A DNA stretch of 32,022 nt. It comes from Arcobacter sp. (lineage in GTDB: Bacteria; Campylobacterota; Campylobacteria; Campylobacterales; Arcobacteraceae). Of this stretch, positions 15,363-32,022 are shown piece after piece. Every line of letters starts with the position of its first letter. Within the stretch, counting starts at the first letter, position 1. The position numbers were made by a program, and so were the translations under genes. The notes below the pieces were generated by a model. The model had not been told where the DNA came from, did not search any database, and worked only from the letters and a program-made list of their open reading frames with translations. The stretch covers positions 1 to 32,022 of the forward strand of contig JAIFNA010000002.1 of the NCBI GenBank assembly GCA_020048055.1, read 5' to 3'.

Positions 15363-15368
15363 TGGAGG

Positions 15369-15374
15369 ATTGTA
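15369..15374 (-). promoter_or_regulatory. Predicted -10 box for the LPS core operon (possible leaderless mRNA)
   Basis: The minus strand reads TTTGGTACAAT, an extended -10 (TG-N-TACAAT). The box ends 6 nt before the start codon at 15362; the bases between (CCTCCA) are the opposite of a ribosome-binding site. The 108-bp divergent region 15363-15470 also holds the plus-strand promoter. Confidence 0.5.
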
Positions 15375-15438
15375 CCAAAATCATACTTTAATACTTTTTT
15401 CAATGAGGTTAGACAAAGAGTTTTCAACACATTTTGGC

Positions 15439-15444
15439 TAAAAT
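15439..15444 (+). promoter_or_regulatory. Predicted -10 box for the GT4-GT2 pair
   Basis: TAAAAT preceded by TTTTGGC lies 26 nt before the ATG at 15471. The predicted leader carries a purine-rich AAAAAGAAG segment that can serve as ribosome-binding site. It is divergent from the core-operon promoter about 65 bp away. Confidence 0.45.
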
Positions 15445-15470
15445 CGACAAAAATTAAAAAGAAGATAAAG

Positions 15471-16553: not shown

Positions 16554-17358
16554 TCTAATAATAGCAGTTTATAAAGATGTTGTGGCACTTGATCTAATCA
16601 TACAGTCGCTAAAAAATCAAACATATAAAAATTTTGAAGTGATTATCGCCGAAGATGGCAAATCTGATGAGATGGCAAAATATATCGCAACCATTGAGGG
16701 ACTTGAAGTTTATCATCTAACACAAGAAGATGTTGGTTGGAGAAAAAATAAAATGCTAAACAAAGCTATAAAAAAAAGCTCAACAGAATACCTAATATTT
16801 ATAGATGGGGATTGTTTACTTGATAAGAGATTTATCGCCGAACACGTCAGGTTAAAATCAAAAAAAACAGTTCTATGTGGACGAAGAACAGAGCCAGGTG
16901 AGTTGTTTAGTGATTTATTAAGAGCAAAAAAAATTTCACTTCAAAAGTTTCTAGATAACTACATAACAAGTTATTTTAAGCTTAAAAAAGACAATACGAG
17001 ACATTATGAAGAGGGAATATACTGCAATCCAAATTCTTGGATTGGAAAACTTATTTCATTAAAAGCTTCAAAAAAAGAAGCTCATCTTGTTGGCTGTCAT
17101 TGGTCGTGCAATAAAGATGATATACTTGAAATAAATGGCTTTGATGAGGATTTTGAGCTACCAACAACTGGAGAGGATACAGATATTGAAAGACGAATGA
17201 GACATTTTGGAATAAAAATGAAATCTTGTAGAAATTTTGCAGTAATGGTTCATTTGTACCATAAAAAGAATTTTAATCAAGATATTTCAAACCAAACTCA
17301 AAAACTAATGGAAACCAAAAAAGATGAGTTTGTTTGCAAAAATGGAATAATCAAATAG
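16543..17358 (+). CDS. GT2 family glycosyltransferase with galactosyltransferase-type C-terminal domain
   Basis: A 271-residue GT-A fold enzyme. VSLIIAVYKD opens the fold, DGD at 88-90 is the metal-binding motif, and GCHWSCNKDDILEINGFDEDF followed by GEDTDIERRMRHFG matches the C-terminal galactosyltransferase-like domain (Glyco_transf_7C type). Probably adds a hexose or HexNAc to the growing core or O-unit. It overlaps the GT4 gene by 11 bp. Notably, its last 47 bases before the stop have a diverged second copy at 19136-19182, so the gene end was duplicated or a paralogue once lay there. Confidence 0.87.
   Translation: MKVSLIIAVYKDVVALDLIIQSLKNQTYKNFEVIIAEDGKSDEMAKYIATIEGLEVYHLTQEDVGWRKNKMLNKAIKKSSTEYLIFIDGDCLLDKRFIAEHVRLKSKKTVLCGRRTEPGELFSDLLRAKKISLQKFLDNYITSYFKLKKDNTRHYEEGIYCNPNSWIGKLISLKASKKEAHLVGCHWSCNKDDILEINGFDEDFELPTTGEDTDIERRMRHFGIKMKSCRNFAVMVHLYHKKNFNQDISNQTQKLMETKKDEFVCKNGIIK
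17308..17354 (+). repeat. Gene-tail repeat, copy A (3' end of the GT2 gene)
   Basis: Forty-seven bases encoding METKKDEFVCKNGIIK. Aligned without gaps to copy B at 19136-19182 by hand, 38 of 47 positions match and the last 17 are identical. Confidence 0.8.
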
Positions 17359-17381
17359 ACTATGTAACTTTCTTGAATCTT

Positions 17382-18014
17382 TCAATCTAAATTATTAATG
17401 TACAGAGAGATATCCAAATGCCTACCAAAATGCCTCCATTCATCCCTTACTCTTGTATCATTTTTAAACCTTTCAATACAAATATTTGATTTAAAATCAT
17501 AGTCTTTAGATGTAAACATAAGTTTATTTTTAAATTCCAAATCATCAAATCTCTTGCCCAAAGAATAATCAAAAAGATCGCCATCACTAAATTTGAATAT
17601 AATCTTATTCAGATCAATCCTATCACATCGATTTAACCATTTTTGTCTAGCTTCCTCTTTTGTTTTATAATGCAAAAAATTTACTTCATATTTTCCATCT
17701 ATCAAGCCTATTGGATAGTCTATTTGATAAATATTTAATCTCTTCATTTCATCGATATATTTTGATTGACCATGTTCAATAAATGATAAGTTATACAATT
17801 TTTCAACTGAAAAGTTCTCCAAAAGTTCAATATAATCAGGTGCAAAAATCATAGAATTGATAAAAGGTGACCGATAAGGCAATCCAAATTTCTTGTATAT
17901 AAAAGTTCCCCAACAATTATTTGAAATAATTGTAAAATTCTTGTTTCGTAATGAAATACGACTTATTCTTGATTTGATATATTTTTCAAAATTTCTTAAT
18001 ATCTCTATTCTCAT
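17382..18014 (-). CDS. DUF1919 family protein (exopolysaccharide-locus protein)
   Basis: A 210-residue protein that matches the DUF1919 pattern as I know it: ISNNCWGTFIYKKFGLPYRSPF near residues 30-51 and HYKTKEEARQKWLNRCDRI around 115-133, followed by FKFSDGD. No signal peptide or membrane segment is seen. Members occur in capsule and exopolysaccharide loci and are sometimes described as acyltransferase- or glycan-biosynthesis-related, but the biochemical role is not established to my knowledge. It is on the minus strand, convergent with the GT2 gene (23 bp apart), and next to a decayed glycosyltransferase. Both lie between the two gene-tail repeats, which suggests arrival as a cassette. Confidence 0.78.
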   Translation of the reverse strand: MRIEILRNFEKYIKSRISRISLRNKNFTIISNNCWGTFIYKKFGLPYRSPFINSMIFAPDYIELLENFSVEKLYNLSFIEHGQSKYIDEMKRLNIYQIDYPIGLIDGKYEVNFLHYKTKEEARQKWLNRCDRIDLNKIIFKFSDGDLFDYSLGKRFDDLEFKNKLMFTSKDYDFKSNICIERFKNDTRVRDEWRHFGRHLDISLYINNLD

Positions 18015-18099
18015 TTTTTACCCTATCTACTTTCTTCTAGTATCATTAAAAAAGATAGTTTGTAATTGTACAATACGAATTGTCTTGTCCATATAATTA

Positions 18100-19072
18100 C
18101 CTTTGTATAATTTTATGCCGCACAAGTCATTAAATACATTATAAAATTTCAATCCACAAATCTCTTTTAATATTAATCTAAATTTATTCTTTTTGTATTA
18201 GAATAGAATTTATCTTTATTTTTATTTAAAAGAAAAACCAATTTTAACTTATCCATGATTTATTTTTAAGCGTATATTATATCATTAAATTGGGTAGCAA
18301 ACATTTATCAGCCTCAGAAAGCAACGATAGTCTTAAAAAATAATCAAGCATGAGAATTTTTTGATTTATTTGAGATGCTTTTTCTCAACAATGCTTGATT
18401 TTTGTTTTTTTAATTTCTTTTTGGCATATCCGCTTAGTGTATTGCTTACATGTTGTCTGTATTGCACCAGGCAATCATCATAATAATGCACTCCATTTAG
18501 TGCAGCAGCATTAGCTGCAATATAAGCATCAAAATAAATTATTTTAGTAAAAGGAAATAGATACTCTAAAATCTCTCTTTTAAACAACATAGCATGAGTT
18601 GAGACTATATTACCAAAGAGAAAGTTTAGACCAATTTGGAAGCTAATGAAATTGTTTCTTAGTTTTTATGATAGTGTTTTATCTAAACTTTGCCCGTTTT
18701 CATCCGCCAATAAAGAATTTGCATAAATCAGGCTACTATCCCCGATATGACTTAGTAGTGACTCTAATTTATCAGCTTTCCAAATATCATCTTGATCACA
18801 AGATGCTATAAAATCGGAAGTTGCTTTTGACAAAATAGACTCAAAGTTTTTCATAAATCCAAGATTTGTTTCATTTACAAAAATCTTTAATTTAATATTT
18901 ATTGATATATTTTTGTAATTTCAACAGCATTATCAATTGAGCAATCATCTTGCAATATTACTTCATAGGATTTGATTGTTTCATTTAACAATGAAGCTAA
19001 TTATTCATGGAGATATGTTGATCTATTGTATGTTGCAATGCAAATTGTTATACAAATACTATTCGCTTTCAT
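18100..19072 (-). pseudogene. Decayed GT2 glycosyltransferase (rhamnosyltransferase-like)
   Basis: From the ATG at 19072 the minus strand encodes ICITICIATYNRSTYLHE, a GT2 N-terminus, interrupted by TAA at 19001-19003 where the family usually has EQL (CAA to TAA would explain it). The frame continues through ILQDDCSIDN and is lost near 18900, but resumes in another frame with INIKLKIFVNETNLGFMKNFES and then ASCDQDDIWKADKLE. A further in-frame stop occurs at 18666-18668; reading continues in the same frame through MLFKREILEYLFPF to KHLK (stop 18366). Later pieces in shifted frames (ILMLDYFLRLSLLSEADK, LKLVFLLNKNKDKFYSNTKR, FRLILKEICGLKFYNVF) extend the remnant to about 18100. An intact gene would be about 300-320 residues. 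Several nonsense and frameshift lesions make it clearly non-functional. Confidence 0.88.
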
Positions 19073-19099
19073 ACCATTGCAACCACTAATAATTTAAGT

Positions 19100-19189
19100 T
19101 AAACATATAAAATTGATGCGAAAACACTTAACTTAATGAATACCAAATTAGACAAATTTATTTGTAAAAATGGAATAATCAAGCTTTAA
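19100..19189 (+). pseudogene. Remnant of the 3' end of a GT2 gene (gene-tail repeat copy B)
   Basis: The plus strand encodes AKTLNLMNTKLDKFICKNGIIKL then TAA at 19187-19189, clearly related to the end of the GT2 protein encoded at 16543-17358 (QTQKLMETKKDEFVCKNGIIK). The 47-bp core 19136-19182 matches copy A at 38 positions. Upstream of about 19100 the frame is broken (TAA near 19099) and no further GT2 sequence is recognisable. It overlaps the end of the convergent waaL gene (19179) by 11 bp. Confidence 0.75.
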
Positions 19190-20387
19190 CCGCTGATTCA
19201 TTCCATTTTATTGCCAAGATTCCAACAATAAAACACCAAAGTGCTATTGTAAATTGTTTCATCCATAAAGGGTCACCAACACAACTAAAACAATATATCG
19301 CCAAAAAGACAACACCGAGCTCCTTTGTTGTTTGGTTTTTTAAAGATACCCTAATGATTTGAAATAAGATATTTAACATCAATAAAATTCCCACAATCCC
19401 ACCTTCAATAATAACCATAAGATATTGGTTATGAAAATGATTGTGCAAAATAAACTCTTTTACTGTATCAGAAAATGGCATAACTTTTTCATCAAAAACT
19501 TTTTGTGATGAGCCAACAGAACCACCAAGTCCAACACCAAAAATTGGATCTTTTTTAAAAATCTCATATCCTGTCATAATAAAAGCGATTCTTGATCCCC
19601 ATGAGCCATCATAATTTAGATTTTGTATCATTGCTAAATCTTGTTTTGTATCTAATATTCTTTTTTGAAATGTATTGCTAAGTGAGAAAGCAACAAAAAA
19701 TACTACAACCAAGCCAATAATAGAGCCAATAATCGCTTTTATCGTAAGCTTATAATGTAAAATAAAAATAGCAATAAATCCAATTAAAAATGCTATTTGT
19801 CCAACGCGACCTGGTGCCAAAAATAAATTTCCAGTAACAGTACAAAAGAAAAGTCCAAAAATCACTTTTTCTTTTATGGTATAATCTTTAGATATAACCC
19901 TACTGAGTAACAAAATTGAAGCAAAAGCCAAGAAAATACTATAATCTATATGCATCATAAATGGCGATAGATATTCTTTTGTTGCATATTTAGCACTCCA
20001 TAAATCAAAAAATACACCATAAGCAATGATTTCAGAGATAAAAATACCAGCCAAAAAAGCAGAAAGAATAAGAGAGACTTGCTCTTTTTTTAATTTTGTT
20101 GCAAAAACAAAAAGGATAAGCCAATAAGAGTAAAGTCGAGCCATATTTGCCCCCTCTTCTGTGTTGCTACTCCAAAATAAACTAATAAAGATATATCCCA
20201 AAAAGATAGTGATTGATAAAAGAATTGGATTGTTTTTGATGTCGTTAATTTTATCTCTTATGTGTCCATCAAAAAGCCACACAAGAGGTAATACGATAAC
20301 AAAAAGGCTTATCAAAGCCCTACTAATTGGTAAGATAAGTGCAAAGGCAATTGCACTATAAAAATAAAAATTTTGGTTAACTTTCAA
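19179..20387 (-). CDS. waaL: O-antigen ligase (WaaL) family protein
   Basis: A 402-residue polytopic inner-membrane protein with about ten to twelve helices. The Wzy_C/WaaL landmarks are present: APGRVGQ (R194) before a periplasmic loop, then GVGLGGSVG (284-292) and HNHFHNQYLMVIIEGGIVG (from 315), which holds the conserved histidine. Such enzymes transfer an undecaprenyl-diphosphate-linked glycan to the lipid A core on the periplasmic side. A Wzy polymerase is the main alternative because both share the fold, but its place in a waaC-waaF locus favours ligase. The start is a TTG with ribosome-binding site AAAGGA about 10 nt upstream. It lies 68 bp after the Wzi-like gene. Confidence 0.82.
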   Translation of the reverse strand: MKVNQNFYFYSAIAFALILPISRALISLFVIVLPLVWLFDGHIRDKINDIKNNPILLSITIFLGYIFISLFWSSNTEEGANMARLYSYWLILFVFATKLKKEQVSLILSAFLAGIFISEIIAYGVFFDLWSAKYATKEYLSPFMMHIDYSIFLAFASILLLSRVISKDYTIKEKVIFGLFFCTVTGNLFLAPGRVGQIAFLIGFIAIFILHYKLTIKAIIGSIIGLVVVFFVAFSLSNTFQKRILDTKQDLAMIQNLNYDGSWGSRIAFIMTGYEIFKKDPIFGVGLGGSVGSSQKVFDEKVMPFSDTVKEFILHNHFHNQYLMVIIEGGIVGILLMLNILFQIIRVSLKNQTTKELGVVFLAIYCFSCVGDPLWMKQFTIALWCFIVGILAIKWNESAVKA

Positions 20388-20455: not shown

Positions 20456-21844
20456 CTAAAAACTCATCTCATAACTTACGAAATTCACTTTTTCACCATT
20501 CAACTTTTTCTCAAAAAGGTAATTTATCTTGTATTGAAATGTTTTAGAAAAGGCAAAGCTTGTGTCAAGTGCATAATAAGAATTTGGCTCAATCACCTTA
20601 TAAGCGCTCTTTGGTGTTAGGTATTTTAATTTTGTTTTTACAAAAACATCATCAAATTCACTCCCAACCTCTACAAAATGTAGATTACTTTCAATGTTTG
20701 CATTTACTTTATCTCCAAACCAATTACCTAAAACAGTTGAGCCATTTTTGTATCCATTTTTATACAGATGATGAACATACCACGCCTCTCCAATATCTAA
20801 AAATTCATACCTAAAGGATGAGTTTTGTGTAAAAGTTGGCAAATAAAATCCAAATCCTTGTACAACATTTCCGAGTTTATAATTCCCACCATTTGTATCT
20901 TCACCACTGTAAGTAGCATACAAAGAAATATCTTTTCCAAAAAACTTATCATTGTATTTAAAATTTAAACTAGCTTGTTGGTTTCCTGTTTCATTATCTG
21001 TATTCAGGTTTTCATTAGTATTATCATTGCTAACTGGGTCAATAAATGCGCCCCAAATATCACTGGCACTAGAACTTCTAGGACCTCCGCCAAATTGAAA
21101 TGTTCTATCAAGTGAAACTTCAACTCTATCAATTGGAGAAAAATCAAGGTGCATTCCAAGAAGCCGTGGACTCCCAGTGTGATCAGTTCCATCATATAAA
21201 ATCCCATCAGTTTTCTTTAATTTTGTCAAAAAAACTTCATAATTAATTGAACCAAATGAAAAAGGTGTGTTGTTTGAAATTGTAATTGACGGTGAATTTA
21301 TTGCATTTTTTGAGATAAGCAAAGCACCATTTTTAAACGAACCATAATAATGCTCTCTAAAACCAACATCAAGTTGAAACATATCAATCCCAGCAGATAA
21401 AAAAGTACTATTTGTAGCAAATTTTAACCTACTTTCATCTTGATAAATCGCCCCTTCAAGTGAGCCTTTTAGGTATTCATTGATGTTTACAAAATAACTA
21501 CCCTCCAAAAGATAACTATATTTTGTATCTTTACCACTCTCATTTGATAGCTCACTTTTATTATCACTTAAAGATAAAGTTATTGATAAATTATCTTTTA
21601 CCAATATCTCCTTGTTTTCAACTTCTTGTGTTTTTTGCAAAATTTTATTGTAAAGCTTTGGACTAGTTAGTTTTATCATTTCATTGTATTTTTTTACCAT
21701 CTCCAAAGAGTACGGCATTTTAGATGTTGGCATATTTGTTAAAACAGCCATTTTCTCTACATCATCGCTTATGCTTGAATCAATTGGTAAATAAAGTGAA
21801 GCCCCAAAAGATAATATTGGTAGAAATATAAGAAATCTTTTCAC
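20456..21844 (-). CDS. Wzi-like capsule assembly outer-membrane protein
   Basis: A 462-residue protein with a signal peptide (MKRFLIFLPILSFGAS). A helical region (about 25-80) is followed by many amphipathic strands. Wzi-family features are seen: HYYGSFKNGALLISKNAINSP and ITISNNTPF, then GMHLDFSPIDRVEVSLDRTFQFGGG. It ends in an aromatic residue (EMSF), as outer-membrane barrels do. Wzi is a barrel that binds and anchors capsule or group 1 exopolysaccharide at the cell surface. The ATG overlaps the stop of the GT9 gene upstream by 4 bp. With the Wza-like and Wzz genes nearby it points to an exported surface polysaccharide in addition to LPS core. Confidence 0.85.
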   Translation of the reverse strand: MKRFLIFLPILSFGASLYLPIDSSISDDVEKMAVLTNMPTSKMPYSLEMVKKYNEMIKLTSPKLYNKILQKTQEVENKEILVKDNLSITLSLSDNKSELSNESGKDTKYSYLLEGSYFVNINEYLKGSLEGAIYQDESRLKFATNSTFLSAGIDMFQLDVGFREHYYGSFKNGALLISKNAINSPSITISNNTPFSFGSINYEVFLTKLKKTDGILYDGTDHTGSPRLLGMHLDFSPIDRVEVSLDRTFQFGGGPRSSSASDIWGAFIDPVSNDNTNENLNTDNETGNQQASLNFKYNDKFFGKDISLYATYSGEDTNGGNYKLGNVVQGFGFYLPTFTQNSSFRYEFLDIGEAWYVHHLYKNGYKNGSTVLGNWFGDKVNANIESNLHFVEVGSEFDDVFVKTKLKYLTPKSAYKVIEPNSYYALDTSFAFSKTFQYKINYLFEKKLNGEKVNFVSYEMSF

Positions 21845-22866
21845 ACCATCTCCTTACTTATTTTTGATTTTATTTGGTTGTAAACCATCTCCACACTAAT
21901 CTCTTTCATACAAAGATTGTTATTACAATTTTTCATCGCATCAGTTTTATAACAAGGGCTACAATCTTTTTGAAGAGAAATAACATTTACACTATTTGTT
22001 GGGCTTTTATATGGACTATCAACGACCACATCATTTGGTCCCATAAGGACAAAAACCGCACAATCAACAGCAGCAGCAATATGCCCAATAGCTGAATCTG
22101 TACAAACAACACAAGAAGCATTTTTTACAATTGTATTTAATTCAAGAATATTATTTTTCCCGACCAAATCTATTGTATTTTGTGGATATGGCTTTAATTT
22201 TTCAAAAAAATTACCCTCCCCTTTTGCTCCAACTATTACAATATTAAATTCAGATGAAAGCTTAGCCATCAACTCTATCCATGAGCTGTTTTCCCAAGCT
22301 CTATAATTTATCCCACCCCTGTTTACATGGGAATTACTAGGTGAAATAACTATATAGTTACCATTTAGTCCAAATTTATCTTTTACCTCTTTAAAATCTT
22401 TAGTTGCAATTTTTGGGAAAGATTTTTCTAAATTCTCTTTTGAAACTATATTTTGTAAAAATAACTTTTGTACCGCTCCACGATTGAGTTTTTTGTTTTC
22501 TATCACATCATCAATTTGTGAGCCGATTTTTTTATCGGCAACAATCTTAGTAATTAAACTTTTAAACTGTTTACCATACTCAAAATTTATCAAAATATCA
22601 TAAGGATTATTTTTTGAAGCTTTTAAAATATCTTTTTTTTCACTACTAAATATTATTGGTAATTTTTTGTATTTAAGTGGGAAAACCTTATGTATTCGTT
22701 TATCACCATTAAAAAGTGTCCCACTTGATGGTGTACAAACAAAATCAATCAACACATTTTCACCAAACTCAAAAATCAAAGCATCAATAACACTTGTGGC
22801 ATAAACTAAATCACCGAGTGCTCCACACCTAATAACTAAAATTCTTTTTGGATTGTTGTTTATCAA
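21841..22866 (-). CDS. GT9 family glycosyltransferase (heptosyltransferase-like)
   Basis: A 341-residue GT9 protein. RILVIRCGALGDLVYATSVIDAL is the N-terminal signature, CTDSAIGHIAAAVDC the donor-site motif (with SAIGH replacing SGPMH), and a cysteine-rich tail CSPCYKTDAMKNCNNNLCM resembles that of WaaF. It starts with TTG; the ribosome-binding site is weak (AGG about 10 nt upstream). An extended -10 box lies at 22901-22906. It probably adds a heptose or similar sugar to the LPS core; the changed donor motif may signal a different donor. First gene of the minus-strand group GT9-wzi-waaL. Confidence 0.85.
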   Translation of the reverse strand: MINNNPKRILVIRCGALGDLVYATSVIDALIFEFGENVLIDFVCTPSSGTLFNGDKRIHKVFPLKYKKLPIIFSSEKKDILKASKNNPYDILINFEYGKQFKSLITKIVADKKIGSQIDDVIENKKLNRGAVQKLFLQNIVSKENLEKSFPKIATKDFKEVKDKFGLNGNYIVISPSNSHVNRGGINYRAWENSSWIELMAKLSSEFNIVIVGAKGEGNFFEKLKPYPQNTIDLVGKNNILELNTIVKNASCVVCTDSAIGHIAAAVDCAVFVLMGPNDVVVDSPYKSPTNSVNVISLQKDCSPCYKTDAMKNCNNNLCMKEISVEMVYNQIKSKISKEMV

Positions 22867-22900
22867 TTTTATTATGCCTAACTTATTTTTTTAAGTTTGA

Positions 22901-22906
22901 ATAATA
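22901..22906 (-). promoter_or_regulatory. Predicted -10 box for GT9-wzi-waaL
   Basis: The minus strand reads TTTTGGTATTAT, an extended -10 form, about 34 bp before the TTG start at 22866. It is divergent from the lytic transglycosylase promoter in the same 127-bp gap (22867-22993). Confidence 0.5.
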
Positions 22907-22966
22907 CCAAAACATAGCTTTTGTATAAATTTCAATTCTCTTCTTAAAAGTTTAAAAAAAAGTAGC

Positions 22967-22972
22967 TATACT
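22967..22972 (+). promoter_or_regulatory. Predicted -10 box for the lytic transglycosylase gene
   Basis: TATACT preceded by AGTAGC; the predicted start near 22979 leaves a short leader with the ribosome-binding site AAAAAGGG at 22986-22993. Confidence 0.5.
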
Positions 22973-22999
22973 AAAAAAGTTTTTTAAAAAGGGTTGGCT

Positions 23000-23434
23000 T
23001 TGTTTAGATATTTTTTATTTATATTTTTTCTTTTAACGCAACTTTATTCAAATGATAAATTTGATAAATATTTTGTTGGAGCTGGGATACAATACAACAT
23101 ACCGCCACTTTTACTTAAAAATATTGCAAAAATTGAGAGCAACCTAAATCCAAAAGTTGTTGGTTTAAATAAAAACGGTACAAAAGACTATGGACTTATG
23201 CAGATAAATACAATCCATCTTAAAAGATTAAATAAAAAATATGGTGTAGATGAAAATCAACTTATGGAGCCAAAAACAAACATCTATGCGGGTGCTGAAC
23301 TACTTTCAAAAATAATCAAACAATATGGCTTAAACTTTGAATCAATAGGCAGATACCACTCAAATACTGAGGAATTTAAAAAAAAATGGAACACAAAACT
23401 CATCAAAGAGCTAACATACGAACTTAAAAAATAA
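23000..23434 (+). CDS. Lytic transglycosylase (SLT domain), short
   Basis: A protein of 144 residues with a signal peptide (FRYFLFIFFLLTQLYSN) and a single goose-lysozyme-like SLT domain. The catalytic glutamate is in KIESNLNP (residue 46 counted from this start), followed by DYGLMQIN and YAGAELL. It cleaves peptidoglycan in the periplasm with 1,6-anhydro product formation. The open frame begins with TTG at 22994, but the purine run 22986-22993 touches that codon; the TTG at 23000 sits at normal spacing, so I chose it. Small dedicated transglycosylases of this kind often open the wall for envelope-spanning machines, here perhaps the polysaccharide exporter encoded 88 bp downstream (inference). 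Confidence 0.85.
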   Translation: MFRYFLFIFFLLTQLYSNDKFDKYFVGAGIQYNIPPLLLKNIAKIESNLNPKVVGLNKNGTKDYGLMQINTIHLKRLNKKYGVDENQLMEPKTNIYAGAELLSKIIKQYGLNFESIGRYHSNTEEFKKKWNTKLIKELTYELKK

Positions 23435-23459
23435 GAGAATAATATAAGCAACCAATGGG

Positions 23460-23465
23460 TATAAT
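23460..23465 (+). promoter_or_regulatory. Predicted -10 box for the Wza-like gene
   Basis: A perfect TATAAT preceded by ATGGG lies in the gap 23435-23521. A start near 23472 would give a leader of about 50 nt with ribosome-binding site GGAG at 23511-23514, 7 nt before the ATG. Confidence 0.55.
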
Positions 23466-23521
23466 CAAGCCTTTTTTAAGAAATACTATTGAAAAAATAA
23501 ATGTAACTATGGAGTTTATAG

Positions 23522-26278
23522 ATGAAAAAAAAGTTTAATCAAGTTGTTATTGCGTTGCTGATTGGCGCTGGGATACTATTTGGAGCAAGTAGTATGGAAA
23601 ATACTATTTTAATTGAGCAACTAAAAAAAGATAAATATCTACAAGAAAAAGTAAAAGCAGAATATCAAAAAAGTGGAACAAAATCCGATAAAACAGACAC
23701 AAAAAAGATAACAAGTCAACCTAATGAAAATCAAATTAACAATGATTTAAACCAAACAACAAATGATACAAATACCACTGAAGACTCCAACGAAACAAAA
23801 AAACCAAAATATACATTAGAAAACTACTATAAAAATTTCACACCATTTTTTTATGAAGGTCATATTTCATTAGTTGAAGAGATTGAAAAAAGACAACTTA
23901 AAATTGAAAAAGAGACAACACTAGAAAGATTTGGGGTGAAGTTTTTTGAAAATACACTCCAAGATATTCTAACATCTGGTGTTCCTGATGATTATATTTT
24001 ATCAACTGGTGATAGTTTAAAAATTGCCGTTTATGGCTTAAGTGAATATGATGGTGAATTAGAAATAAATAAAGATGGAAAAATAATAATCCCGCAAGTT
24101 GGAGCAATTAGTGTGCGAGGCTTAAAATATAAAGTTGCAAAGTCTACTATTTACAACAAATTAAATGCAACTTTTCCAAATACTACGATAAACATCACAA
24201 TAGGAAACACTACACCATTTAGCGTAAGTGTAGTAGGTGAAGCAAAAAAGCCAGGACTATACACGGTTAATGCTCTCTCAAAAGTAAAAAATGCACTTGT
24301 TATGGCTGGAGGAATCAGTAATGTTGGAAGCATGAGAGGTATAGAAATTAGACGAAACGGTAAAGTTGTAGCTACATTTGATCTTTATGAGCTTCTAAAA
24401 GGTGGCAAAGACAATGGTGATGTTTATCTCTATCCAAACGATGTCATTTTTATTCCAACAGCAAAAAAAATGGTTTATCTTGATGGAAACGTTAAGTCTC
24501 CTGCCATATATGAAATGAAAAAAAATGAAACTCTACAAGATTTGATTGATTTTAGTGGAGGGATAAATAGCGACTCACTAAAAACTATCAAAATCTTTAG
24601 AAGCCAAAATGGAGTTAGAACACTTTTTGAAGCGAAACAAAATGAGAAAATTACACTTAGAGATGGAGATAAAATAGTTGTTGGAAAAACATCTGATGTT
24701 ACAGACAATGTTGCTTATTTGTATGGAAATGTTTATAAAAACGAATCTATCTCAATCGAAAAGAATGACTCTGTTGGTAGCTTATTTAAAAGATTGATTA
24801 GTTTTTATGGGATCGATAAAGTCTTTATGTCAAATAGCGATATGGGGTATTTTTTAGTAAAAAGAGTTGATGAAAAAACTTTAGAACCTAAGATTTTATC
24901 TGGTGATTTAACAAAAGCAATAAATGGTGATAAAAATTTTGATGTGTCACTTCAAAGTGAAGATAAGATATTTATTTTTAATAAATCTATAACTCAAGAT
25001 ATAAAATATATCTCTATTGGTGGTGAAGTATTAAGAAGTGGAAAATTCAAATATTTTGATGGGATGAAATTAAACGATGCACTTATGGCAGGTGGAATTA
25101 AAAAAGAATCAGATTTAACAAAAATAAAAGTAACATCAGTTAAAAAAGATAACACTTATGAGATAAAATATTACAACCAAGAGATAGCAAATAAAATCAA
25201 CTTAAATCCTTATGATGATATAAATATCACAAATTTTGCATCAAATGATGATTTTGAAGAGATTACTATCGGTGGCGCTGTTGTTGAGGGAGATACATTT
25301 AAATACTCAAAAAATCTAACAATAAACTCACTAATAAATCTAGCAGGTGGACTAAGACAAAATGCCAATAAAGAGGAATTTGAACTTGTAAGATACGAGG
25401 TTTCTAATGGGATTAGAAAACATAGCGTTCAAGTTTTAAACCTACAAGAAGCCCTAAAAAATAATCTTCAACTTCAACCATTTGATGAAGTGATGATTAG
25501 ACAAATAAGTGGTTGGAGGGAAGCGAAAACAATAACTTTAGCAGGTGAAGTTAATTTCCCAGGTACTTACACAATCTTACCGGGAGAAAAACTCTCAAGT
25601 GTTATAAAAAGAGCTGGTGGATTTAAAGAATCTGCATTTATTGAAGGTGCCGTATTTACAAGAGTTGATGTTCAAAAAATTCAACAAGATGCTTTTAAAA
25701 AACAACTTGACAACTTAGAATCATCAATGCTGTATCTTTCAGCTCAACCAGATGAAGCTGGAAAAAGTACAAATTCAGCAGAATTACTTCAAGTTTTAGA
25801 TTCTGTTAGAAAAAGAGGAGCAGAGGCAGTTATACTTGGAAGACTAGCTATAAAACTAGATAAAAACTTAGATAATTTCATAAACACTCCTTATGATATA
25901 GTTTTAAAAGCTGGTGATACACTTACTATTCCTGAAACTGAGCAATCGGTTGCAATTATGGGTGAAGTTATGAATTCAACAGCTGTAACACATATAGAAG
26001 ATAGAGATATTTGGGATTATATTGAACAAGCTGGTGGACTTAAAGAGAGTGGAGATGATGAGGGAATTTTTGTTGTTAAAGCGAATGGGGAAGCAAAAAG
26101 ACTTAAAAGATATTTTTTCACAGGATACTCAAATCCTAAAATTGATGCGGGAGATACTATAATAGTTCCATTTAAAGTTGATAAATTTAGCGGTCTAAAA
26201 TTTGCAAAAGATATAACAAGCATCATCTACCAAATAGCAGTATCAGCAGCTGCACTTAAAACAGTTGGAGCGCTTTGA
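23522..26278 (+). CDS. Large Wza-like polysaccharide export protein with multiple SLBB repeats
   Basis: A 918-residue exported protein. Residues 1-22 are a signal peptide without a lipobox cysteine, unlike Wza. Residues 45-97 are a low-complexity, Asn/Thr/Lys-rich linker. The polysaccharide-export (PES) domain is about 154-230 (DDYILSTGDSLKIAVYG). Beta-grasp SLBB-like repeats start near 234, 317, 397, 496, 580, 669 and 808, each with a G-x-V start and most with an AGG(I/L/F) end; the third is degenerate. A helical insert is at 715-785. The last 25 residues (DITSIIYQIAVSAAALKTVG) form an amphipathic helix like the one Wza uses to make its outer-membrane pore. Family members form the periplasm-spanning channel for capsule or exopolysaccharide. 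Wza is about 380 and KpsD about 560 residues, so this one is long. Confidence 0.88.
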   Translation: MKKKFNQVVIALLIGAGILFGASSMENTILIEQLKKDKYLQEKVKAEYQKSGTKSDKTDTKKITSQPNENQINNDLNQTTNDTNTTEDSNETKKPKYTLENYYKNFTPFFYEGHISLVEEIEKRQLKIEKETTLERFGVKFFENTLQDILTSGVPDDYILSTGDSLKIAVYGLSEYDGELEINKDGKIIIPQVGAISVRGLKYKVAKSTIYNKLNATFPNTTINITIGNTTPFSVSVVGEAKKPGLYTVNALSKVKNALVMAGGISNVGSMRGIEIRRNGKVVATFDLYELLKGGKDNGDVYLYPNDVIFIPTAKKMVYLDGNVKSPAIYEMKKNETLQDLIDFSGGINSDSLKTIKIFRSQNGVRTLFEAKQNEKITLRDGDKIVVGKTSDVTDNVAYLYGNVYKNESISIEKNDSVGSLFKRLISFYGIDKVFMSNSDMGYFLVKRVDEKTLEPKILSGDLTKAINGDKNFDVSLQSEDKIFIFNKSITQDIKYISIGGEVLRSGKFKYFDGMKLNDALMAGGIKKESDLTKIKVTSVKKDNTYEIKYYNQEIANKINLNPYDDINITNFASNDDFEEITIGGAVVEGDTFKYSKNLTINSLINLAGGLRQNANKEEFELVRYEVSNGIRKHSVQVLNLQEALKNNLQLQPFDEVMIRQISGWREAKTITLAGEVNFPGTYTILPGEKLSSVIKRAGGFKESAFIEGAVFTRVDVQKIQQDAFKKQLDNLESSMLYLSAQPDEAGKSTNSAELLQVLDSVRKRGAEAVILGRLAIKLDKNLDNFINTPYDIVLKAGDTLTIPETEQSVAIMGEVMNSTAVTHIEDRDIWDYIEQAGGLKESGDDEGIFVVKANGEAKRLKRYFFTGYSNPKIDAGDTIIVPFKVDKFSGLKFAKDITSIIYQIAVSAAALKTVGAL

Positions 26279-27243
26279 TGGAAACTAAAATACAAAATTT
26301 AGAAAATACAACACATATTCAAAACGAAGATGAGATTGATTTAAGGGAATTAGGGAAAACAATAGCTAGATACAAATGGAGTATTTTACTATTTACACTA
26401 ATTGTAACAAGTCTTGCTATACTGTTTGCACTATCAAAACCAAATGAATATGAATCAAAAACACTTCTTATGCCACAAGAAAGCTCTAAGCCTAGCCTTG
26501 GTGGAGGATTAGCTGCCTTAGCTGGTATGGCTGGTGTTGATGTTGGTGGAGGTGGTGCGCCTGGTGCTGAGGAGTCATTTAATGCTCTTTTAACAAATTT
26601 TGATTTTATGAAAACATACATTGAAAAATATGATATTCACAATAAATTAGATAGTCATCAATCTATAAAAAATTACCAATTTGCACTTGGATACGATAAA
26701 ATATATACTTTTTTAGAGACAAAAAGTAGTGATAAAAATATCACAAAAGATGAATTGGTTTTTAATACTTTTCAAAATATCTCAAAAACTATAATGATAA
26801 CAGCAGATAAAAAATCAAGTATCATAGTGATGTCAGCAAAACACAACGACCCAGTTATGGCACAATATTTAGTTGAAACTTTTTTAAGTTTCGCGAGTTC
26901 ATATCTCAAAACAAAAGATATGAAAGATAATGATAAACAAATAGCTTACTACAATGAAGTGATGAAAAACACAAGTGATATTGCGCTAAAAGTGAAACTA
27001 GCTGAATTAGCCTCAGCTCTAATTCAAAAGAAAGTTCTTTCAGATGCAAATGAATTTTACAATGTAAAACAATTTACAAAACCACAAATCGCGTATGTTA
27101 AAGATAAGATTGGTCCCAAAAGAGCTTTGATTGTTGTTGTTGCTTTTGTAACATCGCTTATTTTATCAATCTTCTTGGTATTTTTAATTGAATTTATAAG
27201 AGGAGATAAAGAGGCGTTAGAGGAGATAAAAAGCGAAGCCTAA
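26278..27243 (+). CDS. Wzz-type chain-length determinant / polysaccharide co-polymerase
   Basis: A 321-residue inner-membrane protein with the Wzz topology: helix 1 at about 34-52 (WSILLFTLIVTSLAILFAL), a periplasmic domain, and helix 2 near 281-304 with a short cytosolic tail. A glycine/alanine-rich stretch (LGGGLAALAGMAGVDVGGGG) follows the first beta region, as in the Wzz/GumC group. There is no tyrosine-kinase domain, so it is not a full Wzc. It sets polymer length together with a Wzy polymerase or feeds the exporter. The frame extends one codon upstream to a TTG at 26275, but the ATG at 26278, overlapping the TGA stop of the Wza-like gene, is the better start. Its end overlaps dgkA by 27 bp. 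Confidence 0.85.
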   Translation: METKIQNLENTTHIQNEDEIDLRELGKTIARYKWSILLFTLIVTSLAILFALSKPNEYESKTLLMPQESSKPSLGGGLAALAGMAGVDVGGGGAPGAEESFNALLTNFDFMKTYIEKYDIHNKLDSHQSIKNYQFALGYDKIYTFLETKSSDKNITKDELVFNTFQNISKTIMITADKKSSIIVMSAKHNDPVMAQYLVETFLSFASSYLKTKDMKDNDKQIAYYNEVMKNTSDIALKVKLAELASALIQKKVLSDANEFYNVKQFTKPQIAYVKDKIGPKRALIVVVAFVTSLILSIFLVFLIEFIRGDKEALEEIKSEA

Positions 27244-27567
27244 CCATATAAAAAAAGTTAAAAGCACACTAAGCAACACACCAAACGCAGCGATATCTTT
27301 TGCATATTTTGCCAATATGTGAAAATCATCGCTCACCAAATCAACAACCTTTTCAATGCTTGTATTAAATACTTCGGCAATTAACGGCAGAAATAAAGAG
27401 GCAAATAGAAAAATTTTAGCCCAAAGTGGATATGGTAAAAACAATAAAACTACACTAAAAATAACAAAAAATAAAAGTTCAAGTCGAAAAGCATTTTCTT
27501 TTAATAGTACTTTAAATCCATCAACTGCGTAAAAAAAATTGTTTTTTAGTGAATATTTTGGCTTCAT
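27217..27567 (-). CDS. dgkA: Diacylglycerol kinase
   Basis: A 116-residue integral membrane kinase with three helices. The DgkA signature AEVFNTSIEKVVDLVSDDFH (about residues 64-83), holding the catalytic and metal-binding glutamates, is followed by the KYAKDIAA motif. It phosphorylates diacylglycerol to phosphatidic acid with ATP at the inner membrane, recycling DAG released by phosphoglycerol or phosphoethanolamine transferases. A ribosome-binding site AGAGGA lies 4 nt before the ATG. It follows the PAP2 gene by 34 bp in the same direction as the LtaS-like gene, a sensible pairing. The stop lies within the convergent wzz gene end. Confidence 0.93.
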   Translation of the reverse strand: MKPKYSLKNNFFYAVDGFKVLLKENAFRLELLFFVIFSVVLLFLPYPLWAKIFLFASLFLPLIAEVFNTSIEKVVDLVSDDFHILAKYAKDIAAFGVLLSVLLTFFIWLGFAFYLL

Positions 27568-27601
27568 TGAATCCTCTTTTGGAATCGAATTTGTTTGATT
27601 T

Positions 27602-28141
27602 TTACCACTTTAATCCAACTTCCAAACCAATACTATTTGTTGTAAAAGTTGGCACAATTGCTAAATTTTTATAAGTTGATGTGAAATAAAAACTACTAAG
27701 TGAGCCAATCAATCCACCAACTACAACATCTCTTGTGTAGTGTTTTTTAGAATCAACTCTACTCCAACCAACATATGATGAAGCTATATAAAAAGGGAGT
27801 GCATAGTTAAGCCCATATCTTTTATGGATAAATGATGCGGACTGAAATGTGATTGAGGTATGAGCAGATGGGAAAGAATCTTCACCACTTCCATCAGGTC
27901 TATTTGCTTTTACACCGTATTTCAAGGCAGTTGTAATGCTACCATTTAGTAAAAATGATTTATAAAATTCACCTCTTCCAACTTCATCATCTACTAAATA
28001 AGTGGTTCCAAATGAAGTAACTGGGATTAAAACCAACAATATATCTCCACTTCTTTCAATACCACTTTTACTGTATAAATTAGGCTGAATAGCAAATAGA
28101 CAAACAAAAAAAGTAAATATTTTTAAAATTTTTATCTTCAC
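27602..28141 (-). CDS. PAP2 superfamily phosphatase
   Basis: A 179-residue protein with an N-terminal hydrophobic signal (about 5-20) and the complete PAP2 motif set: K74-x6-RP (81-82), PSAH (91-94) and SR-x5-H-x3-D (S127, H134, D138). It should remove phosphate from a lipid such as phosphatidic acid, undecaprenyl diphosphate or lipid A on the periplasmic side. The tail after the last helix (VPTFTTNSIGLEVGLKW) looks like beta strands ending in an aromatic residue, unusual for inner-membrane PAP2 enzymes and perhaps hinting at an outer-membrane or periplasmic form. The ATG overlaps the stop of the LtaS-like gene by 4 bp. The substrate cannot be decided from the sequence. Confidence 0.87.
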   Translation of the reverse strand: MKIKILKIFTFFVCLFAIQPNLYSKSGIERSGDILLVLIPVTSFGTTYLVDDEVGRGEFYKSFLLNGSITTALKYGVKANRPDGSGEDSFPSAHTSITFQSASFIHKRYGLNYALPFYIASSYVGWSRVDSKKHYTRDVVVGGLIGSLSSFYFTSTYKNLAIVPTFTTNSIGLEVGLKW

Positions 28142-30066
28142 CTAGAAACACTCACTGGAGGATAACTTTTATAGAGTTTTTTATCATACATATCATTCAA
28201 AACAGTGATAATTGCTAGTGCTTTTTTCTCCAGCAACTCATCTTTTGTTGATGGAATCAATTTTTTATTTAGATATTTGAATGTTTGAGGTTTCATATTT
28301 GGTCCAAGAACTGAAACATTTTCACCAACTCTTAAGGCATATACATCATTAAATTGCATCAGGTTTATATCTTTTTTTGTTTTTGAAAAAATTGATTGCC
28401 CCAAGATTGGATAACCAAAATCAACACCAAGTAGATCAATTGCAGTAGCTAACACATCAGGTTGCGATGCTTGATTTTCATATTTCATACTTTTTAACCC
28501 ATCAGCAACTATAACAGCAGGTATATGAAACATATCAATAGGAACTATATCATCACCATAAACTCTAACATTATGGTCTGCAACCACAACAAAAACAGTA
28601 TCTTTATAGTATCCCTCTTTTTTAGCTAATGCAAAAAAACTTCCGATAGCAAAATCGGCATATTTGATTGCATTTTTTACACTATTTTTAGGTTCTCCTC
28701 TAACGAGTTCGATTTTCCCATCTGGTAATTCAAATGGTGCGTGATTTGATTGACTAAACATAACACTTACAAAATTTTCTTTGTTTTTGTAGTGTGTTTT
28801 AAACTTCTCATTTGCTTGAACAACTAAATCCTCATCACTTACACCCCAAGTACTTACAAATGATGGATTTTTAAAATCTTTTTGCTCAATTACAGTATCA
28901 AAACCATTTCCTAAATACCAACTTTTCATATTATCAAACCTAGCTTCTCCACCATAAATAAAACTAGATTTATACCCGTAAGGTTTTAGCAAACTAGCAA
29001 CACTAAAAAAATCACTTTGAGATTTTTGTCTTTTTAAAATCCCCTCACCAGCAATAGCAAGATACCCAGAACTCATTCCAGCAAGTCCCCTGATACTCCT
29101 TGTGCCGTTTGAATAAAGATTCGTAAAAGCTAGATTCTCCTCCCCTAATCTATTTAGATTTGGCGTTAAGTTTGCCTCTCCTCCACTAAATGCTACAAAT
29201 TGTGCTCCCAAACTCTCCTCTATAAAAATCACAAGGTTTTTCTTCTTAGTAGTTTTGAAATTTGATTTTACTTCTCTATAAAACTTTTTATCTTTATCAA
29301 GTGGTATATTTAAAGCTTCACTTGTAAGTTTATAAGCTTCCTCAAGCCCTATTTTTCCGTATTTTTCAATTAGTTTTGTATTGTTTTTTTTATTACTATA
29401 ATAAGCACTTCCGATTGAAAAAAGTGAATTTTTTGTTATCTCATTTATTACTCGATTTTCACTATAAAGCGCATCTGATATATTTGCAGGACGATGACCA
29501 AATGATGATCTAATACCAATAAAAAGCACTATTAAAAGTGGAAAAAGTAACAAAAATCTATACAAATATTTAGTTTCAAAAGCATCTTTAAAGTCTATAA
29601 ATTTTGATTTAATAAAGATATATCCAACCATAAACATCAAAATAAAAGTTAACAAAAGTGCTACCTTATAATCTTTTAACATCAAAGAGACTACCTCTTT
29701 TGGGTACTCCAAATACTCTACAAAAAGGTAATTTGGTCTTACATCATATTGGGCAAAAAATGGAATTGTTGCACACTCAATATAGACTAAAAACAAAAGA
29801 ACAGACAAAAGATAATAAGTTAAAAATTTTGAAACAAAAACCGCAATTCTTTTTGGTGAGATAGATAAAATCAAAACAGGTAAAATAAAAAATATTGAAA
29901 TAACAATAATATCAAGTCTAGCACCGTACACAAAGGTCAACAAACTTTCAAACAAACTAATATCATCTAATCTATCAAAATAGATACAATAAAGGGTAAT
30001 TCTCCCTAAAAAAAATAATGCTAAAAATAGTAAATAACCCCTTAGTAAAACTTTTAAATAACTCAT
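28138..30066 (-). CDS. LtaS/OpgB-like phosphoglycerol or phosphoethanolamine transferase (sulfatase fold)
   Basis: A 642-residue inner-membrane protein. Five helices occupy residues 1-185, with a periplasmic alkaline-phosphatase/sulfatase-fold domain from about 275. Metal and catalytic residues are visible: E283 in VIFIEES, nucleophile T322 in YSNGTRSIRG, H442 in SNHAPF, and D497-H498 in VVADHN. The family transfers glycerol-phosphate (or ethanolamine-phosphate) from phospholipid to a glycan, leaving diacylglycerol, as in LtaS and OpgB. It sits between lpxL and PAP2 with 4-bp overlaps at both ends and dgkA just beyond, so the donor side fits phosphatidylglycerol with DAG recycling. The acceptor, perhaps LPS core or a periplasmic glucan, is inference. 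Confidence 0.87.
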   Translation of the reverse strand: MSYLKVLLRGYLLFLALFFLGRITLYCIYFDRLDDISLFESLLTFVYGARLDIIVISIFFILPVLILSISPKRIAVFVSKFLTYYLLSVLLFLVYIECATIPFFAQYDVRPNYLFVEYLEYPKEVVSLMLKDYKVALLLTFILMFMVGYIFIKSKFIDFKDAFETKYLYRFLLLFPLLIVLFIGIRSSFGHRPANISDALYSENRVINEITKNSLFSIGSAYYSNKKNNTKLIEKYGKIGLEEAYKLTSEALNIPLDKDKKFYREVKSNFKTTKKKNLVIFIEESLGAQFVAFSGGEANLTPNLNRLGEENLAFTNLYSNGTRSIRGLAGMSSGYLAIAGEGILKRQKSQSDFFSVASLLKPYGYKSSFIYGGEARFDNMKSWYLGNGFDTVIEQKDFKNPSFVSTWGVSDEDLVVQANEKFKTHYKNKENFVSVMFSQSNHAPFELPDGKIELVRGEPKNSVKNAIKYADFAIGSFFALAKKEGYYKDTVFVVVADHNVRVYGDDIVPIDMFHIPAVIVADGLKSMKYENQASQPDVLATAIDLLGVDFGYPILGQSIFSKTKKDINLMQFNDVYALRVGENVSVLGPNMKPQTFKYLNKKLIPSTKDELLEKKALAIITVLNDMYDKKLYKSYPPVSVSR

Positions 30067-30959
30067 TGTTTCCCTTGTTTATATATCTCTTTGTGATACT
30101 CTTTAAATCTTTTGTGTTGCCAAAACCATTGGTCTGGGTTATTTAAGATATGCTCCCCCATAACATCAGCTTGTTTTTGAGTGAGATTTAATATTTGATT
30201 TTCCCCTTCAAAATCTTTAGCTTCAATTGGTGGATAAAATTTTGCGGTGTATGAACCGAAACTCTCCATTGTAAAAAAAAGTGGCAAAATTATCGCATCA
30301 AATTTGACTGCCAACCTTGATGAAGAATCGGCTTGTTTTACTCGGTGTCCTAAAAATTCAACATCAATCCCACTACCATTGTGTTGATCTATAACCATAC
30401 CAATTATCCTATCCTCTTTTAAAGCCTTTACAAGTCCACGGCTAGCATCCCTTTTTGTTAACATTTGAGTATTGTTTCTAGTTCGTGTATTATCTAATTC
30501 GGAGTTTAGGTATTTGTTATTCATCGGTCGTCCAACCATTGTTGTTGGAAGATATTTTAGCGGAATAAAAGTATTTCCATACTCCCAATTTCCATAATGT
30601 GCTGTTATAAGGATAATTTTTCTTTTATTTTTGATAGCTTCTTCTAAAAAATTTCCATTTTCAACTTTGATTTTTTTTTCAAATCCATCTAGTCTTAAAG
30701 TTTGATTTTCAACAAATTCATAAAGATTATAGATTAGATTTTTATAACTATTTTTTACAATCTCCCATTTTCTTTGTTCACTCAAAGTATCTTTAAAAAC
30801 CATATCAATATTTGCTTTTGCGTATATTTTATGCTCACGATTTAGGTGAAAAACAAGCCAAGCTACAAAGTCAAGAAATACTTTAACTATATTTTTTGGA
30901 AACAACAAAACAAAAAATTTAAAACTTTTATAAAGGAGAAATAGTAAATAATCTATCAT
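30063..30959 (-). CDS. htrB: Lipid A biosynthesis late acyltransferase (LpxL/HtrB family)
   Basis: A 298-residue inner-membrane acyltransferase with an N-terminal anchor helix (about 10-37). The catalytic H-x4-E motif is HYGNWE (H121, E126), followed by the VGRPMNNKYLN and IDQHNGSGIDVEFLG blocks and the NPDQWFWQHKRFK block typical of LpxL. It adds a secondary acyl chain to Kdo-lipid A on the cytosolic face. It is coupled to waaC (4-bp overlap upstream) and to the LtaS-like gene (4-bp overlap downstream). The waaC-htrB pair is the usual beginning of campylobacterial LOS loci. Confidence 0.93.
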   Translation of the reverse strand: MIDYLLFLLYKSFKFFVLLFPKNIVKVFLDFVAWLVFHLNREHKIYAKANIDMVFKDTLSEQRKWEIVKNSYKNLIYNLYEFVENQTLRLDGFEKKIKVENGNFLEEAIKNKRKIILITAHYGNWEYGNTFIPLKYLPTTMVGRPMNNKYLNSELDNTRTRNNTQMLTKRDASRGLVKALKEDRIIGMVIDQHNGSGIDVEFLGHRVKQADSSSRLAVKFDAIILPLFFTMESFGSYTAKFYPPIEAKDFEGENQILNLTQKQADVMGEHILNNPDQWFWQHKRFKEYHKEIYKQGKQ

Positions 30960-31948
30960 TTAATAAGCCCTCTTGCGATATCTACAATATCTTTTGGCTC
31001 AATTTCTCCAATAGTGAAATCATCATTATCTAACCTTAAAGGGTTTACTGTACTTTTTGATTTTATTGTTTTATTGATAGTTGTTTCATAACTATTTCTA
31101 GTATGTGGTGTGTTTCCAAAAATTGTAATCGATGGGATATTTAAACCCCAAGCTATATGTGTTGGACCAGTATCGCCACCAATTACAAGTAAAGAGTGTT
31201 CTATTTTTTTAATTAAATCACTCAAATTCCCTTTTGTATCAAGTGTAATAAAATCGCTATTTTGGCTCAGCCAAAGTGCTGTTTCATATTCACTTTCATT
31301 TCCAAACACAACTAAAATATCTTTTTTAAGGATATTTGCAACCTCTAAAAACTTCTCTTTTGGATAGATTTTATTTGGTTTTGAAGCTCCAACAACAAAA
31401 ATAATATATTTTTTATCGTTCAAACATTTTGTATTTGAAAACAAAAATGGCTTTTTATTTAAAATATCATCTTTTACCACCCTAATACCAAGTGGCTCAC
31501 ATATAACTTTTAAATTTCGCTCAATCACATTTTTATCATAAGGGATATAAACCTTTTTGTCATAAAAAAATGATGCTAACTTCTCCCTGATGCTATCAAT
31601 ATCAAATCCCAAAATATAGCTACCGACAACTCTGCTTCCTATGATTTTACTAACTATTGCTGATTTTAGAAGCCCTTGAGCATCGATTACTACATCGTAA
31701 TTATTTTCTCCATACTGATTAATAAGTTTTAGTTGGGTAAAAATTTCTCTTTTATTTTTTTTAATAGATTTTAGATTTATTGGCAAAATCTTATTGATAT
31801 CTTGATTGTTTTCCAAAATTCCTTTAAAACTATCCTCAACAATCCAATCAATCAAACAAGTTGGAAATTCTCTTTTTATAAATTGCAATGCCACCATTGC
31901 ATGGATGATATCCCCCATTGCCGAGAGCTTAATGATACAAATTTTCAT
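30956..31948 (-). CDS. waaC: LPS heptosyltransferase I
   Basis: A 330-residue GT9 protein when started at the ATG at 31948 (MKICIIKLSAMGDIIHAM). KLSAMGDIIH is the WaaC form of the N-terminal motif and GGDTGPTHIAWGLNIP the donor site, ending with IFGNTPHTRN. It adds the first heptose to Kdo on lipid A in the cytoplasm. A longer frame reaches back 12 codons to a TTG at 31984, but the family normally starts at MKI, so I chose the inner ATG. No good ribosome-binding site is seen; instead TTTAAT, one mismatch from the -10 consensus, ends 6 nt before the ATG (31955-31960). It starts the five-gene operon waaC-htrB-ltaS-like-PAP2-dgkA. Confidence 0.92.
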   Translation of the reverse strand: MKICIIKLSAMGDIIHAMVALQFIKREFPTCLIDWIVEDSFKGILENNQDINKILPINLKSIKKNKREIFTQLKLINQYGENNYDVVIDAQGLLKSAIVSKIIGSRVVGSYILGFDIDSIREKLASFFYDKKVYIPYDKNVIERNLKVICEPLGIRVVKDDILNKKPFLFSNTKCLNDKKYIIFVVGASKPNKIYPKEKFLEVANILKKDILVVFGNESEYETALWLSQNSDFITLDTKGNLSDLIKKIEHSLLVIGGDTGPTHIAWGLNIPSITIFGNTPHTRNSYETTINKTIKSKSTVNPLRLDNDDFTIGEIEPKDIVDIARGLIK

Positions 31949-32022
31949 ACTACCATTAAACCCTAAACTAAAAATAAAACCCAAAGGGTAAGATGGAGTA
32001 AAATAGCAAACATAACAGCGGT

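Follow-up and report, generated by a model that had tools for sequence, protein, structure and literature searches.

Layout of the operon

We analysed a 32,022-nucleotide stretch of Arcobacter sp. DNA (contig JAIFNA010000002.1 of assembly GCA_020048055.1; in the following the window, with its genome designated G000), and in particular a membrane transferase of the OpgB/LtaS type that is encoded there inside an operon for lipopolysaccharide (LPS) biosynthesis. Five open reading frames (ORFs) follow one another on the minus strand from 31984 down to 27217, in the order waaC, htrB, transferase, PAP2 and DgkA, and all five passed the Pfam cut-offs (Glyco_transf_9, Lip_A_acyltrans, Sulfatase, PAP2 and DAGK_prokar). 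The genes, their order, the exact 4-bp overlaps (waaC/htrB, htrB/transferase, transferase/PAP2) and the 34-bp gap before the last gene are precisely those described in an earlier note on this DNA, which had been made from the sequence alone.

The transferase gene (28138..30066, minus strand, 642 amino acids; PF00884, 2.2e-40, 139 bits) is preceded by waaC, encoding LPS heptosyltransferase I (30956..31948, minus strand; TIGR02193, 258 bits, above cut-off), whose ORF opens with a TTG at 31984 and contains an ATG at 31948, and by an acyltransferase gene of the lipid A htrB/lpxL type (30063..30959, minus strand; NF006270, 259.7 bits, above cut-off). Downstream lie the gene for a small PAP2-family lipid phosphatase of 179 amino acids with a GTG start (27602..28141, minus strand; PF01569, 2.4e-9, 37.4 bits) and dgkA2, which encodes a second, divergent DgkA of 116 amino acids (27217..27567, minus strand; PF01219, 8.5e-26, 90.2 bits). 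The canonical dgkA, here dgkA1, is located directly upstream of waaC; its 3' end falls within the window (31963..32022, minus strand; DAGK_prokar, 103.3 bits at G000:C3:31972-32274, Pfam 5.3e-30), and the whole gene spans about 31963-32313 on the contig (L038:5964-6314). The earlier note had counted one DgkA in the operon, which is dgkA2; dgkA1, mostly past the window end, was invisible to it. The LPS operon thus carries a DgkA gene at each end, with dgkA1 before waaC and dgkA2 in last place.

The 4-bp overlaps were considered as a sign of a special module and rejected as such: of 19 pairs of adjacent genes on one strand that were listed in the window, 8 overlap by exactly this length, which therefore reflects compact operon packing.

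Branch, fold and catalytic site of the transferase

A profile of 88 relatives was aligned with E. coli OpgB using hhalign at 99.3% probability (E 1.1e-20), with 28% of residues identical over 313 columns, whereas the same profile gave 16.9% probability with the genome's own EptA. In a search with a 12-ortholog profile, the Vibrio parahaemolyticus protein VP1736 (3LXQ) ranked first, followed by LtaP and LtaS. The structural model computed from the 88 sequences had a predicted local distance difference test score (pLDDT) of 94.4 and a predicted template modelling score (pTM) of 0.91; a first model, built on 12 sequences, had a low pLDDT of 71.8 and was set aside. The closest structural match of the 88-sequence model was again 3LXQ (Z 58.2), with LtaP/LtaS entries, one of them containing glycerol phosphate, at Z 35.7-38.5, YejM at about 31 and the phosphoglycerol transferase GacH at 26.4. 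No EptA-family entry was present among the 50 listed structure matches, an absence that was not used as evidence. Two PF00884 proteins are encoded in the whole genome, the transferase and a protein on contig C2 that carries the genome's single match to PF08019 (EptA_B_N); the Pfam scan found neither this domain nor a DUF3413 N-terminus in the transferase. Together, these comparisons support a place in the OpgB/LtaS (phosphoglycerol) branch and not in the EptA (phosphoethanolamine) branch, in line with the family assignment of the earlier note.

The protein consists of a helical N-terminal membrane part and a periplasmic domain of the alkaline-phosphatase fold. Long N-terminal helices were modelled at residues 2-28, 38-59, 72-107, 134-154 and 174-186, from which we infer a placement in the membrane ahead of the periplasmic domain. 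Within this domain, the presumed metal ligands are E284 (codon 29215..29217, minus strand; E in 87 of the 88 aligned relatives) and D497-H498 (28573..28578, minus strand; invariant), and the presumed nucleophile is S324 in the motif GTRS (29095..29097, minus strand), which is S in 73/88 and T in 15/88 relatives, and hence one or the other in all of them. R323, H442, D497 and H498 are each kept in 88/88 relatives and T322 in 84/88. As Ser and Thr exchange at position 324, the alignment points to this residue as the nucleophile, with T322 a less likely candidate; hhalign set the GTRS region against DYTIAG of OpgB. The predicted catalytic residues of the transferase are intact.

Distribution of orthologs and linkage across Campylobacterota

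Among 60 related genomes, any transferase match was found in 16 and a close match (53-76% identity) in four (G003, G007, G025 and G046); in 397 genomes of the phylum, 121 had any match, and a full-length close ortholog was present in 32 others and a split one in two. The linkage count covers 38 genomes, each with a close ortholog, including the window's own and the two with a split gene (G242 and G348); G001, G002, G004, G005 and G006, also searched for the partner genes, were left out because their transferase relatives are distant or missing. Copy number and genome size served to calculate the expected values. A DgkA gene lies no further than 5 kb from the ortholog in 12/38 genomes (expected about 0.27), a PAP2 gene in 13/38 (about 0.26) and an EptA gene in 9/38 (about 0.14), at least one of the three occurring in 20 of the 38.

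Genes for lipid A and core biosynthesis recur in the same surroundings. Of the 38 genomes, three (G000, G007 and G385) have htrB no more than 100 bp from the transferase, as do the loci L131 and L176; the cut htrB of G003 (78 amino acids) fell under the length limit of this neighbour count. In L131, from Sulfurovum, core-type genes come after waaC-htrB-transferase, among them one for a Kdo/WaaP-type kinase. LPS-core (Kdo/WaaP) kinase-type genes lie within 5 kb in 3/38 genomes and in 11 of 80 loci, the latter being a wider set of the best 80 of at least 571 relatives; the two sets overlap (for example, L122 is from G025, L156 from G364 and L167 from G385) and are not independent. L089 reads transferase-EptA-PAP2-DgkA, and L085 contains dgkA, a YejM-like gene, a core-kinase-like gene and the transferase. 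Among the matches listed, relatives of the VP1736-like transferase family come from numerous Campylobacterota, Gammaproteobacteria and Bacteroidota as well as from other groups. As a further observation, five loci (L086, L087, L088, L091 and L098) carry two LtaS-like genes back to back that are about 30% identical, in several of them with a PAP2 gene past the second.

Sister genomes and the surroundings of the operon

The closest transferase orthologs are those of the sister genomes G003 and G007. The arrangement dgkA1-waaC-htrB-transferase is common to the window's genome and G007, and G003 has htrB-transferase, with the adjoining htrB cut. In G003 the transferase is on a contig of 3.7 kb, so that partners missing near it may be an assembly effect there, although the PAP2-DgkA2 pair of this genome has other neighbours on another contig. 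Relatives of PAP2 in G007 and G003 show 55% and 49% identity, and those of DgkA2 74% and 67%. The pair lies near cytochrome c and two-component genes in G007 (named by inspection) and near ABC-transporter-like genes in G003.

In G364 (L189), cytochrome c and two-component genes of this kind come after an EptA-PAP2-DgkA set, and cytochrome c genes (again named by inspection) also lie behind EptA in the window's genome. From these shared neighbours, PAP2-DgkA2 may stem from an EptA-type locus, as an old companion that was later placed behind the transferase. EptA-PAP2-DgkA, or parts of it, were likewise observed beside small cytochrome c-like genes in L189, L187 and L037 (contig C2 of G000), with a two-component system also in the first two. 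In G004, of the same genus, genes for a different PAP2, a 37% identical transferase relative and a YejM-like DUF3413 protein come after waaC (L028). PAP2 and a transferase of this type have thus come together next to waaC on more than one occasion; a cytidylyltransferase-like gene, named by inspection only, is present there as well.

In the window, dgkA2 is convergent with a wzz gene. Glycosyltransferase family 9 (GT9) and family 2 (GT2) genes, a Kdo/WaaP-type kinase gene and an O-antigen-ligase-type gene lie at 10204-20387, and a Wzi-type gene at 20456-21844. Wzi-like genes are found downstream of the transferase in L024 and L023, with a GT9-like gene also in L024; in the window (20456-27243), these Wzi-like and GT9-like genes lie past the polysaccharide-export/wzz block. 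The region is rearranged relative to the sister genomes, with pap2-dgkA2 at the joint. Window scans for promoter-like sites (15, against 26.7 in shuffled sequences) and terminator-like sites (5, against 2.1) yielded nothing useful.

PAP2 and DgkA proteins

The two DgkA proteins of the genome share 41% identity. Aligned to E. coli DgkA, dgkA2 keeps E28, E34, E69, N72, E76, D80, K94 and D95, which we take to be the catalytic residues in the E. coli numbering; its substrate may be diacylglycerol or undecaprenol. PAP2 contains all three motifs that we assume for its family (KxxxxxxRP, PSxH and SRxxxxxHxxxD), as KYGVKANRP, PSAH and SRVDSKKHYTRD, and scored below the cut-off for the lipid A 1-phosphatase LpxE (NF007159, 20.7 against 177 bits).

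This type of PAP2 was found in 7 of 104 Arcobacteraceae genomes searched, and among these seven it was seen beside the transferase in the window's genome only. Four further carriers are G030, G013, G439 and G011; G011, G013 and G030 were searched for the transferase and gave no match. Adjacent PAP2-DgkA pairs occur in 9/38 ortholog genomes, mostly away from the transferase, and such pairs look like a separate unit that recurs. Those of L191, L190, G368 and G342 are far removed from the transferase and consist of a different PAP2 gene with a divergent DgkA gene immediately after it. In L205 (4770-6107), a PAP2 of the window type lies inside an open frame of 445 amino acids, perhaps fused to the gene that comes next in L203 and L204.

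Proposed donor and acceptor, and alternative explanations

Starting from what is observed, namely the gene content and order, the fold, catalytic residues and branch of the transferase and its linkage to lipid A/core genes, we infer the donor, the acceptor, the recycling of diacylglycerol and the substrate of PAP2 as follows, and assign the resulting reading a probability of about 0.5. The operon would serve LPS modification. On the periplasmic side of the inner membrane, the transferase would cleave a membrane phospholipid (most likely phosphatidylglycerol), hold the headgroup phosphate on S324, and hand phosphoglycerol on to lipid A or to the LPS core sugars that the flanking genes produce. 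The leftover diacylglycerol would be converted to phosphatidic acid by DgkA, from dgkA1 and/or dgkA2. PAP2, paired with dgkA2, would be a periplasmic lipid-phosphate phosphatase, probably acting on a lipid A phosphate or on undecaprenyl pyrophosphate. Phosphatidylglycerol is favoured as the donor because E. coli OpgB (phosphatidylglycerol) and OpgE (phosphatidylethanolamine) have no significant sequence similarity (PMC3818809), and the transferase groups with OpgB.

Several findings weigh against this reading. The transferase scores 72.3 and 46.4 bits with the OpgB equivalog models (cut-offs 572 and 574 bits) and 71.9 bits with that of LtaS (970 bits), and is thus a relative, not an ortholog, of either. 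In S. aureus LtaS, we take H347, D349, W354 and R356 to form the pocket for glycerol phosphate; the profile alignment has Y371, G373, D378 and M380 at these positions in the transferase, although OpgB, when aligned, likewise lacks the LtaS residues. The full five-gene order was found in the window's genome only, and in both G003 and G007 PAP2 and DgkA2 are together but away from the transferase, which leaves the idea of a module weak. In 18/38 ortholog genomes, neither DgkA, PAP2 nor EptA lies within 5 kb. The linkage counts ignore relatedness, and much of the signal comes from the genera g35, g64 and g10; with hits from four, five and four genera for DgkA, PAP2 and EptA, respectively, relatedness inflates the counts, yet more than one lineage contributes. 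The earlier note had proposed a transferase-PAP2-DgkA module inside a waaC-htrB operon and a survey of its co-occurrence in Campylobacterota. The survey found at least one of DgkA, PAP2 and EptA within 5 kb in the 20 genomes given above, but the exact set of five genes in the window's genome only, and so does not support a conserved unit; orthologs do lie repeatedly near DgkA, PAP2, EptA, htrB/waaC and core kinases. The module claim is thereby weakened and the link to LPS strengthened.

One alternative is that no dedicated system exists and that an LPS operon has by chance a PAP2-DgkA2 cassette at its end, where it would serve undecaprenyl or phosphatidic acid turnover unrelated to the transferase. 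We regard this as a serious contender, somewhat short of even odds: the pair moves as a unit and is found at one site in G003 and at another in G007, the PAP2 type occurs in genomes with no transferase match, and most adjacent PAP2-DgkA pairs are not beside the transferase, but in other genera the transferase is linked far above chance to DgkA and PAP2 of other types. Much the same enzymology on the same acceptor, with phosphatidylethanolamine as donor, would make the protein a second phosphoethanolamine transferase beside EptA. The frequent vicinity of EptA, PAP2 and DgkA, a classical phosphoethanolamine context, and the absence of the presumed LtaS pocket residues speak for it; the profile matches, strong to OpgB and weak to EptA, the lack of EptA_B_N and the PF08019 EptA already present on C2 make it improbable. 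That the protein is a sulfatase or phosphodiesterase, as its Sulfatase domain and a weak Phosphodiest match in Pfam might indicate, is far-fetched: the motif C/S-x-P-x-R, which we take as the signature of formylglycine sulfatases, was not found at the nucleophile, where the sequence reads G-T-R-S-I-R-G, the membrane region is long and helical, and the best solved relatives after 3LXQ are LtaP and LtaS.

The acceptor might instead be another periplasmic or surface glycan, such as an N-glycan, a free oligosaccharide or an adjoining capsule-like polysaccharide. STT3/PglB is encoded in 30 of the 39 genomes searched, the window's included, the Wzz- and Wzi-type genes are close by, and GacH, a structural relative of the transferase, decorates a cell-wall polysaccharide. 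We nevertheless consider this unlikely, since the recurrent neighbours of the orthologs are lipid A/core genes and nine of the 38 ortholog genomes (G025, G151, G275, G332, G350, G364, G170, G421 and G330) gave no STT3 match. An N-glycan may therefore serve as acceptor in this genome but is not the general one, and was rejected as an obligate acceptor. Periplasmic glucan was rejected too: MdoG/OpgG was found in none of the 39 genomes, the window's among them, with a positive E. coli control. Given this absence and the recurrent linkage, which supports a lipid A/core role well, LPS is a better guess than periplasmic glucan, and lipid A/core our best guess for the acceptor in the phosphoglycerol-transfer reading. 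Phosphoglycerol on O-chains is known from several Gram-negatives (PMC3210612).

Relation to known systems

E. coli OpgB belongs to the same alkaline-phosphatase-fold branch, with the catalytic region aligned, and its diacylglycerol by-product is toxic without Dgk, which handles it (PMC3818809). It differs in sequence (28% identity over the catalytic domain), in its nucleophile, which is Thr and not Ser, in having no dgkA within the 18 kb around opgB, and in its acceptor, as no periplasmic glucan is expected in the window's genome, where no MdoG was found. LtaS/LtaP and GacH share the fold and metal site and are phosphoglycerol donors, as their entry titles also state; they are Gram-positive proteins of about 20% identity or less with different glycerol-phosphate pocket residues. 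YejM/PbgA is a membrane protein with this fold and a role in LPS control, but its DUF3413 N-terminus is not matched by the transferase. The nearest solved relative is VP1736 of the same subfamily, which shares 39% identity and the GTRS motif and matches the model with Z 58.2 over 402 residues; its structure is titled 'uncharacterized protein', and literature searches, none of which used the name VP1736, found no function for this family.

The earlier note knew of no described system of this composition in the phylum. Campylobacter jejuni presumably has an EptC-DgkA neighbourhood. The composition is less unfamiliar than the note held: EptA-PAP2-DgkA sets occur in the same family as the window's genome, and mcr-1-pap2 and mcr-3-dgkA arrangements and the recycling of diacylglycerol by DgkA after EptA are published (PMC7559476, PMC10285318). 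EptA/MCR systems resemble the window's operon in encoding a phospholipid headgroup transferase with PAP2 and/or DgkA in a lipid A context; they differ in that the transferase here is of the OpgB/LtaS branch, without EptA_B_N, and in the headgroup, predicted to be phosphoglycerol, which adds negative charge, and not phosphoethanolamine. Among the open-licence papers that the literature searches listed, none reported a waaC-htrB LPS operon in which DgkA and PAP2 accompany an OpgB/LtaS-type transferase. The accessory logic of DgkA and PAP2 is already known, and such a transferase in that role looks like a phosphoglycerol-type variant of it.

A bolder form of the favoured reading, which we hold to be doubtful, is that anionic phosphoglycerol from phosphatidylglycerol is placed on lipid A/core by a system with its own diacylglycerol kinase and with a phosphatase that first clears a lipid phosphate. 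Such a system would mirror the polymyxin-related EptA/MCR-PAP2-DgkA sets while preserving charge, and would extend through Campylobacterota and some Gammaproteobacteria with the VP1736-like transferase family.

If phosphoglycerol transfer to LPS is wrong, the locus is no more than a usual LPS operon that also encodes accessory lipid enzymes. If it is true, the DgkA/PAP2 accessory logic of colistin-resistance genes would also serve a transferase of another branch, and the VP1736-like family would gain a testable function in LPS phosphoglycerol transfer.

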